DNA of 64,000 nucleotides from Hypericibacter adhaerens (GTDB lineage: Bacteria > Pseudomonadota > Alphaproteobacteria > Dongiales > Dongiaceae): contig NZ_CP042582.1 of assembly GCF_008728835.1 (NCBI RefSeq), positions 5,191,001-5,255,000 on the forward strand, given 5' to 3'. Shown here piece after piece: positions 49,223 through 56,779 of this stretch (its first letter is position 1; each line of letters opens with the position of its first letter). The notes under the pieces are model-generated. The model had not been told where the DNA came from. It made no database searches and saw nothing but the letters and a program-made list of their open reading frames with translations. Position numbers and translations under genes: made by a program.

Positions 49223-49885
49223 TCAGGGATTCTGCGAGACCAATTTCGCCAGATAGGGCTTCTGGATCGCCAGAAGCTTATCATAGGCGCCCGGTGCCGC
49301 CGCCGTCGCCATGTTGGTGTTGACGACGAAGGGCCCCAGCAGGGTGAAGCTGGTGACGCCGGCCTTCGCCATGTCCTGGCCGCCGGCCGAGGCCGTCATG
49401 GCCAGCGCGATATAGAGCCCGTTGCGGTCCTTGTCGACCACGCCCAGGAGCTGGGTATCGGAGAGCTTCATGCCCTGCAGCCGCGCGTTGATCTCGCTCT
49501 CGACCTCTTTGGTATCGAGCTTCGGCATCTGGCTTTGCATGGCGTTGATGAAATCGCCGCGCGACATGCCGGCGACCCGGGGCTGGCCGTTCTCCAGCTG
49601 CACCGCCAGGTTGCCATAGACGCTGTAGCTGGTAAGGCGCCCGGCCCGCCAGGCCTCGATCTCGTTGCAGGGCACGAAATGCATCAGCACCCGGTTCCGG
49701 TCGGCCTGGGCATTCTCGACGGCCTGCATGACCCGGGCATCCTGCGGCTTGGTGCGATCGAGCGCGCAATAGCCTTGCGGCGGCTCGATCGACAGGAACC
49801 GGCCGCCGACCTGGACCTGCTCGGCCTCGGCGAGGGACGCGGTGAACAGAGCGGCACCGAACGCCAGGATCCAGCAGAAGCGCAT
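49223..49885 (-). CDS. Secreted protein of unknown family, paralogue A
   Basis: A 220-residue protein with a signal peptide (MRFCWILAFGAALFTASLAEA). The mature part starts with a beta-like segment ending in PPQGYCALD. LLGVVDKDRNGLYIALAMTA lies in the middle, and the end is YDKLLAIQKPYLAKLVSQNP. ATG 49885 has AAAGGAG upstream. The following upstream gene encodes a clear paralogue, so this is a tandem duplication. No known domain recognised. A two-Cys pattern (GYC and PCNE) suggests a disulfide. Confidence 0.8.
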   Translation of the reverse strand: MRFCWILAFGAALFTASLAEAEQVQVGGRFLSIEPPQGYCALDRTKPQDARVMQAVENAQADRNRVLMHFVPCNEIEAWRAGRLTSYSVYGNLAVQLENGQPRVAGMSRGDFINAMQSQMPKLDTKEVESEINARLQGMKLSDTQLLGVVDKDRNGLYIALAMTASAGGQDMAKAGVTSFTLLGPFVVNTNMATAAAPGAYDKLLAIQKPYLAKLVSQNP

Positions 49886-49929
49886 CGACCGTCTCCTTTG
49901 CTGTCGAACGGGTCTCACGGGATATGGGG

Positions 49930-50607
49930 TCACGGATTGCGGCGCACCAGCTCCGCCGCGAAGCTCTTCTGCGACGCGACGAGCTGGTCGAGAGCGCCCT
50001 CGCCGGTCGGCGCGAACAGATAGAGGTTGACCGGGATCGAGCGCAGCATCGTGCTGGCGACCATTCCCGCCTGCGGGACCGTTTTCCCGTCGAGCTCCAG
50101 GCTGGCGAGGACGCCGACATAGAGGGCATCGTCATTTCGCTCGAGGATGCCCAGAAGCTCCGTCTGCGGAATCTCGGCCCCGGCCGCGGGCGGCTCGCCC
50201 TCGGCCATGCGCCAGGCCGCCGCCTTTCGATCCGGCTCGGGCATCTGCGGGGCGACGATCCTGAAATACTCCTCTTTCGTCAGGGGCAGCGGATGCGGAG
50301 CATCCTTGTAGGAGAGAGGGAGCATGACCTGCCCATAATGGACCAGGCGGTCGGTGCGCCGCGCATGCAGGTCGGCGAGCTCGTCGCAACGCGCGAACTG
50401 GAGCGCCACGATGTTCGACCCCTGCTGCGCGACCTCGTCTTCGACGCGCTTGAGCAGGACCGCCTCGTCGGGATCGTCGTGACGGAGGGCGCAATAGCCC
50501 TCGGGCGGCGACAGCGACAGGGTGACGCCGGCGACCGGGTAATCCTGCGCGGCAACGGGGCGAGCGAGGACCAGCAGGAGAAGGAAAGCCGAGACCGCGA
50601 TGCGCAT
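49930..50607 (-). CDS. Secreted protein of unknown family, paralogue B
   Basis: A 225-residue protein with a signal peptide (cleavage near ARPVAA). It shares with its neighbour PPEGYCAL, a second Cys (ARCDE), LLGILERNDDALYVGVLAS and the end LDQLVASQKSFAAELVRRNP. Order and spacing of these blocks match paralogue A over the whole length. Function unknown. A 44-base gap separates the two genes, so one transcript is likely. Confidence 0.8.
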   Translation of the reverse strand: MRIAVSAFLLLLVLARPVAAQDYPVAGVTLSLSPPEGYCALRHDDPDEAVLLKRVEDEVAQQGSNIVALQFARCDELADLHARRTDRLVHYGQVMLPLSYKDAPHPLPLTKEEYFRIVAPQMPEPDRKAAAWRMAEGEPPAAGAEIPQTELLGILERNDDALYVGVLASLELDGKTVPQAGMVASTMLRSIPVNLYLFAPTGEGALDQLVASQKSFAAELVRRNP

Positions 50608-50676: not shown

Positions 50677-51453
50677 CTACCGGCGCGCCACCATCAGCTT
50701 CTTGATCTCGGCGATGGCCTTGGCCGGATTGAGACCCTTCGGGCAGGTCTTGGTGCAGTTCATGATGGTGTGGCAGCGATAGAGCCGGAACGGGTCCTCG
50801 AGATTGTCGAGCCGCTCGCCGGTGCATTCGTCGCGGCTGTCGGCGATCCAGCGATAGGCCTGCAGCAGGATCGCCGGGCCCAGATAGCGGTCGCCGTTCC
50901 ACCAGTAGCTGGGGCAGGAGGTGGCGCAGCAGAAGCAGAGGATGCATTCCCAGAGCCCGTCGAGCTTGGCGCGCTCCTCGGGGCTCTGCGGATGCTCGCG
51001 GCCCGGCGCCGGCGACTTGGTCTTGAGCCAGGGCTCGATCGAGGCATATTGCGCATAGGCGCGGTTTAGGTCCGGGACGAGATCCTTCACGACCTGCATG
51101 TGCGGCAGCGGGTAGATCTTCACCTCGCCCTTCACCTCGTCGATATATTTGGTGCAGGCGAGCGTGTTGGTGCCGTCGATGTTCATGGCGCAGCTTCCGC
51201 ACACGCCCTCGCGGCAGGAGCGGCGGAAGGTCAGGGTCGCGTCCATCTCGTTCTTGATCTTGATGAGCGCGTCCAGGACCATCGGCCCGCATTTGTCGAG
51301 ATCGACCTCGTAGGTGTCGAGCTGCGGCGTCTCGCCCGAATCCGGGTTCCAGCGATAGATCTTGAACTGGCGGATGCGCTTGGCGCCTGCCGGTGCCTTG
51401 TGGGTCTTGCCGGGTCGGATCTTGGAATTGGCGGGCAGGGCGAATTCGGCCAT
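50677..51453 (-). CDS. sdhB: Succinate dehydrogenase iron-sulfur subunit
   Basis: A 258-residue electron-transfer subunit of complex II. The [2Fe-2S] ligands lie in CREGVCGSC and LACTKY. The other clusters use [11 protein letters not shown] and [17 protein letters not shown]. It is not adjacent to sdhCDA: 3.5 kb with four unrelated genes lies between sdhA and sdhB, and the gap upstream of sdhB (130 bases to the flippase-like gene) may hold its own promoter. Confidence 0.97.
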
Positions 51454-51582
51454 CGTCGTGCAAATCCTCTCTCGAATCTCAGGCGAAGAGCGGCCCCTCG
51501 CGACCAGGGACCGCTCTTTCTTGCGGCAAGCCTCGCGCCAAGGCTACGCGGTTTTCGGCGTGAATCGATGCTAAAGCATTAA

Positions 51583-52617
51583 CTAGCTGTTTTCGCTCGC
51601 CTTTACCAGCCCGACCGGGCGCGCCTTGCGCATTTCCAGATAGCCATAGCCGATGGCGAGCCCGGCGGCGATCCAGACCAGCTCGCGGCCCCGGCGCACC
51701 AGCGCCACCGCCACGCCGACCGAAGGCTCGCCCACGAAGGCGCCATAGAGCAGCAGCAGCGCCCCCTCGGTCGCCCCCAAGCTGCCCGGGATGAGGCCCG
51801 TCGCCTGGCGCACCAGCTGCACGGTGGCCTCGATGACGAGGGCTTCGGCGGGGGCCAGCGGATAGCCCAGCAACGCCGAGATGACCCAGAGCTCGAGCGC
51901 GCCCAGGAGCCAGCCGAGGAAGGCCAGCAGAAGGGCGCCGCCGAACCGCAGCGGCGCGAAGACATAGAGACGCTGGATCTCGTCCTCGACCGCGCGGGTT
52001 TCGCTCAAGACGCGCTCGAGCCCGCGCGCATAGCGGTAACGGTGGAGGAAGGAAGCGAGCCGCGAGGCGATCCGCAGGCGCTGCACCAGGAAGAAGCCCA
52101 GGATCCCGGCGGCGAACAGCAGCGCACCGACCCCGATGGCGGCGACCATGTGGGCGTCGAGAGCCGGCTGCCGCTGCATCAGAATGCAGGCGATGCCGAG
52201 GAAGGGCAGGAAGGACAGCAGCAGCGAGGTGCGCGCCACCAGGAGCGACGCGATCGTCTCGCGCGCGTCCAGGCCCCGATGCTTGACCAGGATGAGGCCC
52301 TTGGCCGGCTCGCCGCCGAGCCCGCCCAAGGGCGTCACCACGTTGAGCATCTCGCCGACCAGCCGCAGCTTCCAGAGCCAGAGCCATTCCCTGATCGTGA
52401 AACGCAGCGCCGGCAGCACGGCCAGCCAGCTCGCCACGTCGGCGCTGAAGATCAGGGCCGCGGCCGCCAGCACCAGCAGGAAGCCCCAGCCGATGCGCCC
52501 CAGGAGATCCAGCAGCTGCGCGAGATCGACGTTCGCCAGGATGAGGGCCAGCAGACCCAGGCCCAGCAGCACGGCGGCGAGCTTGACCCAGAGCCGGGAG
52601 GAGATTCGCACCGCCAT
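51583..52617 (-). CDS. Flippase-like / LPG-synthase transmembrane domain protein (UPF0104)
   Basis: A 344-residue membrane protein with about eight transmembrane segments. It has the GGLGGEPAKGLILVKHRG signature and the late motif RQATGLIPGSLGATEGA, typical of the membrane domain shared with lysylphosphatidylglycerol synthase. It lacks the soluble transferase domain, so lipid flipping or transfer is inferred. It lies 40 bases after the CDP-alcohol phosphatidyltransferase. Confidence 0.85.
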   Translation of the reverse strand: MAVRISSRLWVKLAAVLLGLGLLALILANVDLAQLLDLLGRIGWGFLLVLAAAALIFSADVASWLAVLPALRFTIREWLWLWKLRLVGEMLNVVTPLGGLGGEPAKGLILVKHRGLDARETIASLLVARTSLLLSFLPFLGIACILMQRQPALDAHMVAAIGVGALLFAAGILGFFLVQRLRIASRLASFLHRYRYARGLERVLSETRAVEDEIQRLYVFAPLRFGGALLLAFLGWLLGALELWVISALLGYPLAPAEALVIEATVQLVRQATGLIPGSLGATEGALLLLYGAFVGEPSVGVAVALVRRGRELVWIAAGLAIGYGYLEMRKARPVGLVKASENS

Positions 52618-52657
52618 CGTCAGGAGAGACGGGGAGACCGGGACGCGCGCGAACCCG

Positions 52658-53263
52658 TCACGCCGCCGAGCGCAGGAAAAAGCGGCGATGCAGCCAGGCG
52701 AAATAGAGCGCGAAGAGCGGCGTCACGATGGCCGACACATAGAGCAGCGGCAGGCTCCAGCCGAGCCAGACGAAGACGGGGATCAGGACCATGGAATCCT
52801 CGGCGTCGAATCCGGCCACGCTGCGCAGCTCGGCCGCGCGCTGGCCCTTCTGGCCCTCGGCCCACATCACCACGCTGAGGATGAAGACGATCGACAGGCC
52901 CACGATGATGCCGAGCGCCACCATCCAGCCGCCCAGCGGCGCTGAGCGCAGGCCGATACCGAGGCCGACGAAGATCGCCGCGTTGCAGACCGAATCGGAG
53001 ACGAGATCGAAGTAGTGGCCGACCTTGCTCATCTTGCCCGAGAGCCGGGCCAGGATGCCGTCCGCCCGGTCGAGCAGCATGGAGATGAGGAAGAGCGCGC
53101 CGCCGATATTGAGCCAAGTCGAGGATCCCTCCGCATAAGCCGCCGCCGCGCCGAGACCGGTCGCCAACCTTAGCGCCGTGATCTGATTGGGGGAAACGGC
53201 GGTGCCCACCAGCGGCTCGACCATCGGCTGCACCAGCCGGTGAATCCAGGTGTTATGACTCAT
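52658..53263 (-). CDS. CDP-alcohol phosphatidyltransferase family protein
   Basis: A 201-residue membrane enzyme with the full family signature D-x2-D-G-x2-A-R-x8-G-x3-D-x3-D (DRADGILARLSG...GHYFDLVSD). It joins a CDP-activated alcohol to another alcohol, as in phospholipid or phosphonolipid synthesis. The ATG at 53263 places the soluble N-terminus and motif at the normal distance. The neighbouring nucleotidyltransferase could provide the activated substrate. The insert MWAEGQKGQRAAELR between helices is unusually polar. Confidence 0.87.
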   Translation of the reverse strand: MSHNTWIHRLVQPMVEPLVGTAVSPNQITALRLATGLGAAAAYAEGSSTWLNIGGALFLISMLLDRADGILARLSGKMSKVGHYFDLVSDSVCNAAIFVGLGIGLRSAPLGGWMVALGIIVGLSIVFILSVVMWAEGQKGQRAAELRSVAGFDAEDSMVLIPVFVWLGWSLPLLYVSAIVTPLFALYFAWLHRRFFLRSAA

Positions 53264-53372
53264 CTTCGTCAGCCTGCCGTAATGCCATTGACATGATCGG
53301 GCGGCGGCGCCTATCACGGGCGCCTGCGGGGGCCAGTCCGCCGGGGGGCGCGACTCAAAACTGTAGGAAATC

Positions 53373-54137
53373 TTGCTGAAATTAGCCATAGACAAGCTCG
53401 CCTCCGAACAGGTCGAGCAGTTCAGGGCGCGCGGTTATACGCTTTCCCGCCATGCCTTCGATGCGGGCGCGGTGGCCGCGTTCGATCGCTGGGCGCGCGA
53501 GCTGGTGGACGCGCCCGAGGTCTCAGGCCGCCACTGGGTCTATCGCGATCCGAGCCTGCTCGATCCGAACCAGCGCATCATCACGCGCATCGAGCGCATC
53601 TCGCCCTTCCATGACGGCTTCCGGCAATTGACGCAGACGCTGGCGCCTCTGGTCGGGCAGCTCCTGGGAGAGCCCGCCCGGCTCTTCAAGGAGAAGATCA
53701 ACTTCAAGTTCCCCGGCGCCGACGGCTTCAAGCCGCACCAGGACGCGCAAGCCGGCTGGAACAATTATGCCGACTTCTTCGTCTCGGCCCTGGTCTGCTT
53801 CGACGAGGCCACGGCCGCGAACGGCTGCCTGCAGATCGTCGAGAACTACGAGCATAAGGGACTGGCGAAGCTCTGGGAGCCCTTGTCCGAGAGCGATCTC
53901 GCCGGCATGCGCTGGATCGACCTGCCGACCCAGCCCGGCGACATCATCTTCTTCGACAGCTATGTGCCGCACGCCTCGCAGCCCAACGTGACGGACCGGA
54001 TGCGGCGCATCTACTACGCCACCTATAACCGGGCCTCCGCGGGCGATCTGATGGAGCGCTACTACGCGGACAAGCATAAGAGCTTCCCGCCCGACATCGA
54101 CCGGGATCCGACGAAGCGCTACGTGTTCCGCGTCTGA
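53373..54137 (+). CDS. PhyH-family Fe(II)/2-oxoglutarate dioxygenase
   Basis: A 254-residue dioxygenase: H122-x-D124 (KPHQDAQAGW), H200 (YVPHAS) and R209. It falls in the same large group as hydroxylases of ectoine and 2-aminoethylphosphonate, but the substrate is unknown. The only reasonable start is TTG at 53373, after an AGGAAA site. It is transcribed against the sdh genes and diverges from the CDP-alcohol transferase. With its neighbours it may hydroxylate a lipid head group or its precursor. Confidence 0.82.
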   Translation: MLKLAIDKLASEQVEQFRARGYTLSRHAFDAGAVAAFDRWARELVDAPEVSGRHWVYRDPSLLDPNQRIITRIERISPFHDGFRQLTQTLAPLVGQLLGEPARLFKEKINFKFPGADGFKPHQDAQAGWNNYADFFVSALVCFDEATAANGCLQIVENYEHKGLAKLWEPLSESDLAGMRWIDLPTQPGDIIFFDSYVPHASQPNVTDRMRRIYYATYNRASAGDLMERYYADKHKSFPPDIDRDPTKRYVFRV

Positions 54138-54164
54138 TCGCGGGACGCGTCGGCCCCAGGATGC

Positions 54165-54905
54165 TCAGTCGTTGTGCAGCGCCGGCTCGACCACCGTGTG
54201 GGCCCGGGTCAGGTCCTCCGGCGTGTCGATCTCGATCCAGGCCTGGCCTGTGATGTCCTCGCAGGCGACGGGCTGCGAGGGATCGGCGAAGAAGACCTCG
54301 CGCATCGCGGGCTCGTAGGGCTCGCCCGCACGGCCGGCGGCGATGAAGCGCTCGGTTGCGGCCGCCAGCCGTTCCGCCATCTGCGGACCGAGCTTGAGGA
54401 AGCCCGGCCATTCGCCCATGGCGTCGAACCGGCCCTCGACGATCTTGCCGAACTCGACCAGCCGGCCGTCCCGAAGGCAGGCCTTGACCGGCTCGGGGCC
54501 GGGCTCGAGATCGCGATCGACCAGCAGGCAGTTCCGGTGCGGCGATTCCACCAGCCGGCGCAGCACCTCGCGGTCATAGAGCACATCGGCGTCCATGAAG
54601 AGAATGTCGGCGCCGCTGCGCAGCACCGCGCGGGCGGTCCAGAGCGACAGCACGGCGCCTTCGTCGAAGCGCGGGTTGTGGATCGTCTCGATCCAGGGCC
54701 TGCGGCCGATCGCGTCGAGCTCGGCCTGGATCTCCTCGGCCTTGAACCCCACCACCATCGTGAGCTTCTCGATGCCGAGGGATTCGAGGATCCGCACATG
54801 CCGGCGCAGCAGCGTCTTGCCGCCGAACTCGAGCAGGCATTTGGGATGGCCGGCGCCGTTGGATAGCCGGATGCCCCGGCCGGCCGCGAGCATGATGGCG
54901 TGCAT
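54165..54905 (-). CDS. Sugar/alcohol-phosphate nucleotidyltransferase (LicC/PntC-like)
   Basis: A 246-residue NTP transferase: N-terminal nucleotide motif MLAAGRGIRLSNGAGHPKCL, metal-binding MDADVLYD, and the C-terminal IEIDTPEDLTRA. Relatives are phosphocholine and phosphonate cytidylyltransferases and sugar-1-phosphate nucleotidyltransferases. It starts 44 bases after the sdhA stop and is probably transcribed with sdhCDA. It could make the CDP-alcohol used by the phosphatidyltransferase 0.9 kb away. Confidence 0.83.
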   Translation of the reverse strand: MHAIMLAAGRGIRLSNGAGHPKCLLEFGGKTLLRRHVRILESLGIEKLTMVVGFKAEEIQAELDAIGRRPWIETIHNPRFDEGAVLSLWTARAVLRSGADILFMDADVLYDREVLRRLVESPHRNCLLVDRDLEPGPEPVKACLRDGRLVEFGKIVEGRFDAMGEWPGFLKLGPQMAERLAAATERFIAAGRAGEPYEPAMREVFFADPSQPVACEDITGQAWIEIDTPEDLTRAHTVVEPALHND

Positions 54906-54949: not shown

Positions 54950-56779
54950 TCAATAGACGCGCGCCTTGGGCGGGAAGGACTGAACGTCGTTCGAGAGCGG
55001 CTGCAGGTGGACGGGCCGGTAGTCGATCTTCGGCCTGCCGTCCTCGCCGCACCAGACGACCGTGTGCTTGAGCCAGTTCTTGTCGTCGCGCTCGGCATGA
55101 TCCTCGCGCGCATGGGCGCCGCGGCTTTCGGTGCGGTTGACCGCCGAGGCGACCGAGACCACCGCCTGGCTCAGCAGATTGTCGAGCTCGAGCGTCTCGA
55201 CCAGGTCGCTGTTCCAGATCATGGAGCGGTCGGAGACGCCGACATCCGAACGCTTGCTCCAGCAGCCCTCGAGCAGCTTCAGGCCCTCGGCCAGCACCTC
55301 GCCGGTGCGGAACACGGCGCAGTTCGACTGCATGATCCGCTGCATCTCGAGCCGCAAGGCCGCCGTGGGCGTGCCGCCCTGGGCATGGCGCCAGCGGTCG
55401 AGCCGCGCCAGCGCCGCGTCCCCGGCATTGGCCGGCAGCGACGGGACGGCTTCGTCGGTGTCGATCGTCGCGGCGCAGCGGTTGGCGGCGGCGCGGCCGA
55501 ACACGACGAGGTCGAGCAGCGAGTTGGATCCCAGGCGGTTGGCGCCATGGACCGAGACGCAGGCCGCTTCGCCGATCGCCATCAGCCCGGGCACCACGCT
55601 GTCGGGATTGCCGTTCCTGAGCGTCACGGCCTCGCCGTGATAGTTGGTCGGGATGCCGCCCATGTTGTAGTGGCAGGTCGGCAGCACCGGGATCGGCTCG
55701 CGCGTGACATCGACGCCGGCGAAGATCCGCGCCGTCTCGGCGATGCCGGGCAAGCGCTCATGGATGATCTTCGGATCGAGATGCTCGATATGGAGATGGA
55801 TATGGTCCTTGTGCTCGCCCACGCCGCGGCCTTCGCGGATCTCCATGGTCATGGCGCGGCTGACCACGTCGCGCGAGGCGAGATCCTTGGCCGAGGGCGC
55901 ATAGCGCTCCATGAAGCGCTCGCCCTCGGAGTTCGTCAGATAGCCGCCCTCGCCGCGCACGCCCTCGGTGATGAGGCAGCCGGCGCCATAGATGCCGGTC
56001 GGATGGAACTGGATGAACTCCATGTCCTGCAGCGGCAGCCCGGCCCGCAGGACCATGGCATTGCCGTCGCCGGTGCAGGTATGGGCGGAGGTGCAGGAGA
56101 AGTAGGTCCGGCCATAGCCGCCGGTCGCGAGCACGACGGTCTTGGCGGCGAAGCGGTGGATCGAGCCGTCGTCGAGATTCCAGGCCATCATGCCGCGGCA
56201 ATGGCCTTCCTCGTCCATAATCAGGTCGAGCGCGATATATTCGATGAAGAACTCGACCGAATGCTTGAGGGCCTGCTGATAGAGCGTGTGCAGGATCGCA
56301 TGGCCGGTGCGGTCGGCGGCGGCGCAGGTGCGCTGGGCGATGCCCTTGCCGAAATGCGTGGTCATGCCCCCGAAGGGACGCTGGTAGATCTTGCCCTCGG
56401 GCGTGCGGCTAAAGGGCACGCCGTAATGCTCGAGCTCGATCACGGCGGGGATCGCTTCGCGCACCATGTACTCGATCGCGTCCTGGTCGCCGAGCCAGTC
56501 CGACCCCTTGATGGTGTCGTACATGTGCCAGCGCCAGTCGTCCTCGCCCATATTGCCGAGCGAGGCCGACATGCCGCCCTGGGCCGCCACCGTGTGGCTG
56601 CGGGTCGGGAACACCTTGCTGATGCAGGCGGTGCGCAAGCCCCGCGCGGCCATGCCGAAGGCCGCGCGCAAGCCGGCGCCGCCGGCGCCGACCACCACCA
56701 CGTCATAGGCATGATCGGTGATCGGATAAGCCTGCCCGTTGATCTTGGGCGCTGCCGTCGGCGCGGCCGGTTCAGCCAT
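54950..56779 (-). CDS. sdhA: Succinate dehydrogenase flavoprotein subunit
   Basis: A 609-residue catalytic subunit of complex II. FAD motif [14 protein letters not shown], the covalent-FAD histidine H62 in [10 protein letters not shown], and the active-site region [15 protein letters not shown] and [12 protein letters not shown] are visible. It follows sdhD by 5 bases. The next gene in the transcript is a nucleotidyltransferase instead of sdhB. Confidence 0.98.

Follow-up and report, generated by a model that had tools for sequence, protein, structure and literature searches.

Between sdhA and sdhB of Hypericibacter adhaerens, in a stretch of 64,000 nucleotides (contig NZ_CP042582.1, positions 5,191,001 to 5,255,000; hereafter, the window), four genes were found that encode a nucleotidyltransferase, a PhyH-family dioxygenase, a CDP-alcohol phosphatidyltransferase (CAPT) and a flippase-like membrane protein. 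On balance, and with some reserve, this module is read here as one half of a phosphonolipid pathway, that for tailoring, retained in the absence of the part that forms the carbon–phosphorus (C–P) bond, with imported 2-aminoethylphosphonate (AEP) or a close relative as its substrate. Because of the gene company of their homologues in relatives, the four genes are assigned to a recognised phosphonolipid set, namely, to its hopanoid-linked version. The tailoring gene set itself was known already, whereas such a module without phosphoenolpyruvate (PEP) mutase (Ppm) is new. The families and the full CAPT catalytic motif named in a first-pass annotation of the window were borne out by the Pfam matches and the translation, as follows.

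54165..54905, minus strand: PntC-like, putative CTP:phosphonate (aminoalkyl) cytidylyltransferase, 246 aa (NTP_transf_3, 2.6e-15)
53373..54137, plus strand: PhyH-family Fe(II)/2-oxoglutarate dioxygenase, TTG start (PhyH, 4.1e-22)
52658..53263, minus strand: CAPT, 201 aa (CDP-OH_P_transf, 6.1e-14)
52994..53071, minus strand: CAPT catalytic motif DRADGILARLSGKMSKVGHYFDLVSD, complete D-x2-D-G-x2-A-R-x8-G-x3-D-x3-D, read from the translation
51583..52617, minus strand: HpnL-like flippase-family membrane protein, 344 aa (LPG_synthase_TM, 1e-27)

The best match of the nucleotidyltransferase, by both sequence profile and modelled fold, was the AEP-specific PntC. A profile built from 27 of its relatives placed Treponema denticola PntC (6pd1) at the top (79 bits) and LicC second (64 bits), and the AlphaFold (AF2) model (pLDDT 95) matched PntC, LicC and inositol-phosphate cytidylyltransferase with Z values of 30.3, 25.4 and about 24, respectively. 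The fold, the metal-site Asp and an amine-contacting Glu are shared with the PntC proteins of T. denticola (Tde1415) and Atopobium rimae (PMC6697681), whereas the window enzyme is about 25% identical to them, is not fused to an AEP transaminase (AEPT), carries Asp in place of E104 and has no Ppm in its genome. In the T. denticola enzyme, the AEP amine is contacted by E104 and E196, and the A. rimae enzyme favours AEP 440-fold over phosphocholine (PMC6697681). The positions equivalent to these two residues were Asp and Glu in 27/27 stand-alone sequences, the first being D105 in the window enzyme, with Asp instead of Glu as in LicC, whereas in two Ppm-plus clusters, whose PEP mutase carries a fused nucleotidyltransferase domain, that domain has Tyr and Met there; this difference points to the stand-alone protein as the AEP activator. 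LicC, a phosphocholine cytidylyltransferase, has the superfamily and the CDP-alcohol logic in common with the window enzyme but gave the lower profile score and Z value, and it partners LicD on glycans. The model of the inositol-1-phosphate cytidylyltransferase/DIPP synthase fusion (NF041135) gave 68 and 39 bits for two module proteins, below its cut-off of 580. Clustering of the nucleotidyltransferase with unrelated sugar pathways, against which the first-pass annotation proposed to check the module, was not seen in the loci examined. Other members of the family encode nucleotidyltransferase relatives at about 29% identity, which were treated as a separate group and set aside; module genes were not found near them, except for weak s_CAPT matches at two loci.

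The PhyH protein is a probable phosphonate alpha-hydroxylase, as its best NCBIfam model by far was the methylphosphonate hydroxylase PhnY (NF052437, 150 bits), and the Ppm-linked PhyH homologues likewise scored best against phosphonate hydroxylase. The iron ligands of the superfamily (HxD...H) and the 2-oxoglutarate-binding Arg, namely, H122, D124, H200 and R211, were invariant in 26 sequences. The CAPT motif residues D109, D112, G113, A116, R117, G126, D130 and D134 (numbered in a 245-aa open reading frame, ORF) were invariant in 19 aligned sequences. According to the codon model, translation of CAPT probably starts at the ATG at 53263, which was preferred because the longer ORF, with a TTG start, overlaps PhyH; the protein of the congener opens with the identical MSHNTWIH. 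The flippase exceeded the cut-off of TIGR00374.

A scan of GTDB genomes yielded 80 named loci; since many of them are short contigs, the counts over these loci are lower bounds. PntC directly adjoined HpnA in at least 31 of the 80 and two or more hpn genes were present in at least 35, while Ppm with the EDKxxxxxNS motif was detected in at least 36, CAPT in 33 and PhyH in 28. All four genes occurred together in the congener (G014, locus L025), in a third genus (G015, L055) and in about 10 further loci, so the search for the set in other genomes proposed in the first-pass annotation was successful, and their co-location exceeds chance. Scattering was not observed in the closest loci (the congener, G015 and L099), although many of the wider 80 lacked one or more of the genes. 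In the congener, genes for an AMP-dependent acyl-CoA-type ligase and a GNAT acetyltransferase lie between PhyH and PntC (L025:6613-8990); a possible role of their products is modification of the head-group amine.

In the Rhodospirillales metagenome-assembled genomes (MAGs), the common order was HpnC/D/E-SHC-HpnG-HpnH-IspH-HpnA-PntC-PhyH-Ppm-PPD-AEPT-CAPT-HpnN-CAPT-HpnL-HpnM, where SHC is squalene–hopene cyclase and PPD is phosphonopyruvate decarboxylase; gene identities of the hopanoid-linked loci were confirmed on representatives. In L083, the hopanoid locus was intact around PntC-PhyH-CAPT, and precisely the Ppm-PPD-AEPT block was missing. In many of these MAGs (loci L062, L068, L083, L088 and L104), the phosphonate genes, with up to three CAPTs, sit inside the hopanoid cluster, flanked by HpnA on one side and HpnN/HpnL on the other, which suggests a phosphonohopanoid or a co-exported phosphonolipid. 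Annotated plasmid or chromid records contained a mixed hopanoid/phosphonate locus in Roseomonas and the order CAPT-2-oxoglutarate oxygenase-flippase-PntC-aepX-aepY-AEPT in Mycetohabitans, with the same seven genes in Cupriavidus and Burkholderia. A hopanoid–phosphonate hybrid was reported for Roseomonas in 2021, with a terpene-phosphonate suggested (PMC8776678), and this was the only report on hopanoids together with AEP in the literature searched. The window module shares homologous PntC and CAPT with these hybrids and, with the Rhodospirillales version, also PhyH and a flippase in the HpnL position; unlike them, it has neither hpn genes nor Ppm beside it.

A predicted phosphonolipid cluster of pepM, ppd, AEPT, NTPT, OG-Fe(II) oxidase, CAPT and hpnL has been drawn for lichen Nostoc and Burkholderia (PMC5987646, adapted from Yu et al. 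2013). The nucleotidyltransferase, CAPT and HpnL-like families are shared with it, and a 2-oxoglutarate/Fe(II) oxygenase occupies the same role, whereas the window module lacks pepM, ppd and AEPT, the first two of which are absent from the whole genome as well, is inserted in the sdh genes, and has a PhyH-type oxygenase where the Burkholderiaceae-type enzyme is HalD-like. It should be noted that a membrane protein of the DMT type with a relationship to the phosphonate-utilisation model TIGR03340, a candidate phosphonate permease, is encoded between PntC and PhyH at L101:4983-5816 and also in L036, L050, L052, L058 and L095. On Rhizobium rhizogenes plasmid pC5.7d (L022), PntC-PhyH-LicD was found near aepY, that is, the tailoring pair is joined to a glycan-type transferase. 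A MAG titled Klebsiella pneumoniae (L097) has a hopanoid–phosphonate cluster and is probably mislabelled.

The H. adhaerens genome is a single contig, 99.5% complete. PEP mutase was absent from both the locus and this genome, where a true AepX query gave no match at E 1e-40, and PPD was not found there either. Two PF13714 proteins were ruled out as PEP mutase, as EDKxxxxxNS was missing in both; the AepX match (47%) in genome G005 has no bearing on the H. adhaerens genome. Consequently, the earlier remark that no PEP mutase lies nearby extends to the whole genome, whereas its companion, that a phosphonate is merely one option, is revised: from the PntC profile and fold and the PhyH assignment, a phosphonate is now the favoured substrate. 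Among 20 genomes without a visible Ppm at the locus, 13 lacked a Ppm match altogether, these being draft MAGs. On the PntC tree, Ppm status was interspersed, with about 10 changes, at least four of them forced by well-supported branches, and no alignment column divided Ppm-plus from Ppm-minus PntC, PhyH or CAPT; the substrate is therefore probably unchanged, and one substrate with two supplies is the simplest reading of these sequences. An early hint of a residue-visible substrate switch (GEW vs GES after E165) disappeared with more sequences.

As to the supply, the genome contains a C–P lyase operon with PhnCDE, above model cut-offs, and, at about 1.79 Mb (L140:9469-19020), an operon PhnW-PhnA-PhnY-FAD oxidoreductase-TmpA-HD oxygenase, in which PhnW, PhnA, PhnY, TmpA and the Phn-HD oxygenase were likewise above cut-offs and which is predicted to combine AEP and trimethyl-AEP breakdown. 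Because both operons are present, it is very probable that the organism takes up and degrades AEP-type compounds; having no phosphonate synthesis, it probably acquires the head-group precursor from the environment. A related route has been proposed for a diatom, in which external AEP would be incorporated directly into lipid via CTP activation, with PCYT2/EPT1 as the enzymes (PMC9765203). External AEP, CTP activation and transfer to lipid are common to that route and the present proposal, whereas the diatom enzymes are those of the eukaryotic Kennedy pathway, and a hydroxylase or flippase is not reported in the available text. A bacterial report of external AEP passing into lipid was not found in the literature searched.

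From the families and gene company, we infer the following route, its substrate, salvage, acceptor and order of steps included. AEP or a close relative would be taken up from the environment via PhnCDE or other means, and the PntC-like enzyme would convert it with CTP to a CMP-phosphonate (CMP-AEP). PhyH would hydroxylate the carbon adjoining phosphorus, at some stage of the route; CAPT would transfer the phosphonate to the hydroxyl group of a lipid, either diacylglycerol or a hopanoid, and flipping of the product would fall to the HpnL-like protein. The sequence of activation, hydroxylation, transfer to lipid and flipping put forward in the first-pass annotation thus fits the published Nostoc/Burkholderia cluster and the gene order in relatives, each catalytic step being a prediction. 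The module may have moved from a locus of the hopanoid type into the sdh operon in the ancestor of the genus; its first gene, that for the nucleotidyltransferase, may therefore share the sdh message.

The main rival of an imported phosphonate is a phosphate ester that the cell synthesises itself, be it phosphoethanolamine, phosphocholine or a related compound, and that would feed a bacterial Kennedy-like branch with the dioxygenase acting on the head group or lipid and no phosphonate involved; this appears unlikely, but it is the strongest of the alternatives. Absence of Ppm and PPD agrees with it, as do the fold match to LicC, the smaller LicC-like Asp at D105 and the same gene set in several Ppm-minus MAGs. 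The search of the genome for choline supply genes, also proposed earlier, returned choline-kinase-family proteins, whose matches were weak and occurred in all genomes searched; no kinase lies in the locus. Against the ester also stand the lead of PntC over LicC (5 Z units, 15 bits), the want of any residue separating Ppm-plus from Ppm-minus enzymes and the proximity of PhyH to a phosphonate hydroxylase. A hopanoid acceptor, for example bacteriohopanetetrol, whose phosphonohopanoid product would be exported by HpnN/HpnL-type proteins, is a narrower form of the imported-AEP reading and is somewhat less probable than the ester. The placement of the Rhodospirillales module inside the hopanoid cluster, SHC and HpnH in the H. 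adhaerens genome, the terpene-phosphonate suggested for Roseomonas and the function of HpnL, not established as of a 2025 study (PMC12583986), speak for it; the window module nevertheless lies outside the hpn locus, an hpn core is missing around the module in Nostoc and in several Burkholderiaceae loci, and hpn co-location may reflect merely a shared outer-membrane destination.

That the head group goes not to bulk lipid but to a polyprenyl carrier or a glycan of the cell surface is quite improbable: PntC homologues in other loci do adjoin LicD-like phosphotransferases, and the published PntC clusters are glycan-linked (PMC6697681), but the partner in the window and in hopanoid-type loci is CAPT, not LicD, and the module has no glycosyltransferase. 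That the four genes are leftovers whose substrate disappeared with the Ppm half would agree with the absence of Ppm and PPD, yet it is very improbable, as the Ppm-minus state recurs across several lineages and all four genes are intact, with conserved catalytic residues, and under purifying selection. No internal stops were found in the comparison with the congener, and dN/dS was 0.25 for the nucleotidyltransferase, 0.18 for PhyH, 0.25 for CAPT and 0.33 for the flippase; the values for comparison were 0.08–0.09 in sdhA/sdhB and about 0.55 in two neighbouring genes that evolve fast.

Several observations weigh against tailoring of imported AEP itself. The dedicated AEP-binding protein TIGR03261 is weakly present in the genome (92 bits vs 392), import of AEP by PhnCDE is assumed, and AEP breakdown competes for the imported pool. 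The score of PhyH does not reach the curated NF052437 cut-off of 500; the flippase (142.7 bits) is under the TIGR03476 HpnL cut-off of 195.65 and is a paralogue, the true HpnL (241 bits) being encoded elsewhere in the genome; the choline-kinase-family proteins are compatible with a phosphate ester substrate; and most Ppm-minus relatives are draft MAGs.

Makers of lipid phosphonates are thought to possess PEP mutase, and genome surveys usually rely on that gene to detect phosphonate producers. If mutase-less PntC-PhyH-CAPT modules act on AEP taken up from outside, a class of bacteria bearing phosphonates escapes such surveys, and mineralisation is not the sole fate of environmental AEP. The wider proposal, that a widespread group of hopanoid-producing Alphaproteobacteria salvages external AEP straight into membrane lipid, with neither synthesis nor cleavage of the C–P bond, is offered tentatively, as possible but doubtful; its strongest form has a hopanoid as acceptor and, if true, would imply phosphonohopanoids and give HpnL-like proteins a role. 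The linkage to hopanoid genes provides a testable idea for HpnL.

The position of the module relative to the sdh genes is described by the following features.

54950..56779, minus strand: sdhA, upstream flank of the insertion (TIGR01816, 968 bits)
53288..53317, plus strand: probable PhyH promoter TTGACA-N18-TATCAC (tentative), TTGAC core kept in the congener
51454..51585, minus strand: flippase–sdhB gap, in which the congener shares a conserved block of about 47 nt; sdhB probably has its own promoter here
50677..51453, minus strand: sdhB (dhsB family), downstream flank of the insertion

The order sdhC-sdhD-sdhA-nucleotidyltransferase-(PhyH, plus strand)-CAPT-flippase-sdhB, the strands and the 3.5 kb between the end of sdhA (54950) and the start of sdhB (51453) agree with the first-pass annotation. 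The base composition of the inserted genes resembles that of sdh (GC content at third codon positions, 0.89–0.92). In the other family genomes that have sdhB, it adjoins sdhA (14/14), whereas the congener has the four module genes between the two; the split is therefore specific to the genus Hypericibacter. The distance of 44 nt from the sdhA stop to the nucleotidyltransferase ATG (54905) was confirmed, but the tie to respiration drawn from it was not upheld, given the genus-confined split and the probable promoter of PhyH. Co-expression with sdh, predicted from position, is plausible for the nucleotidyltransferase alone, since PhyH lies on the opposite strand with its own promoter-like element and a conserved block precedes sdhB; the link to respiration, which rests on gene position, looks incidental. 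The consensus scan for promoters and terminators gave no signal above chance, and the PhyH promoter call, based on conservation in two species only, is tentative because the scan did not report the element. A GC-rich inverted repeat, AAGAGCGGTCCC...GGGGCCGCTCTT, lies in the flippase–sdhB gap, is less perfect in the congener and is a possible attenuator or terminator without a T-tail. Adjoining sdhB, two tandem genes for very fast-evolving secreted paralogues (about 29% identical; window positions 49226-50607) were found, with 41–51% identity to the congener and dN/dS of about 0.55.

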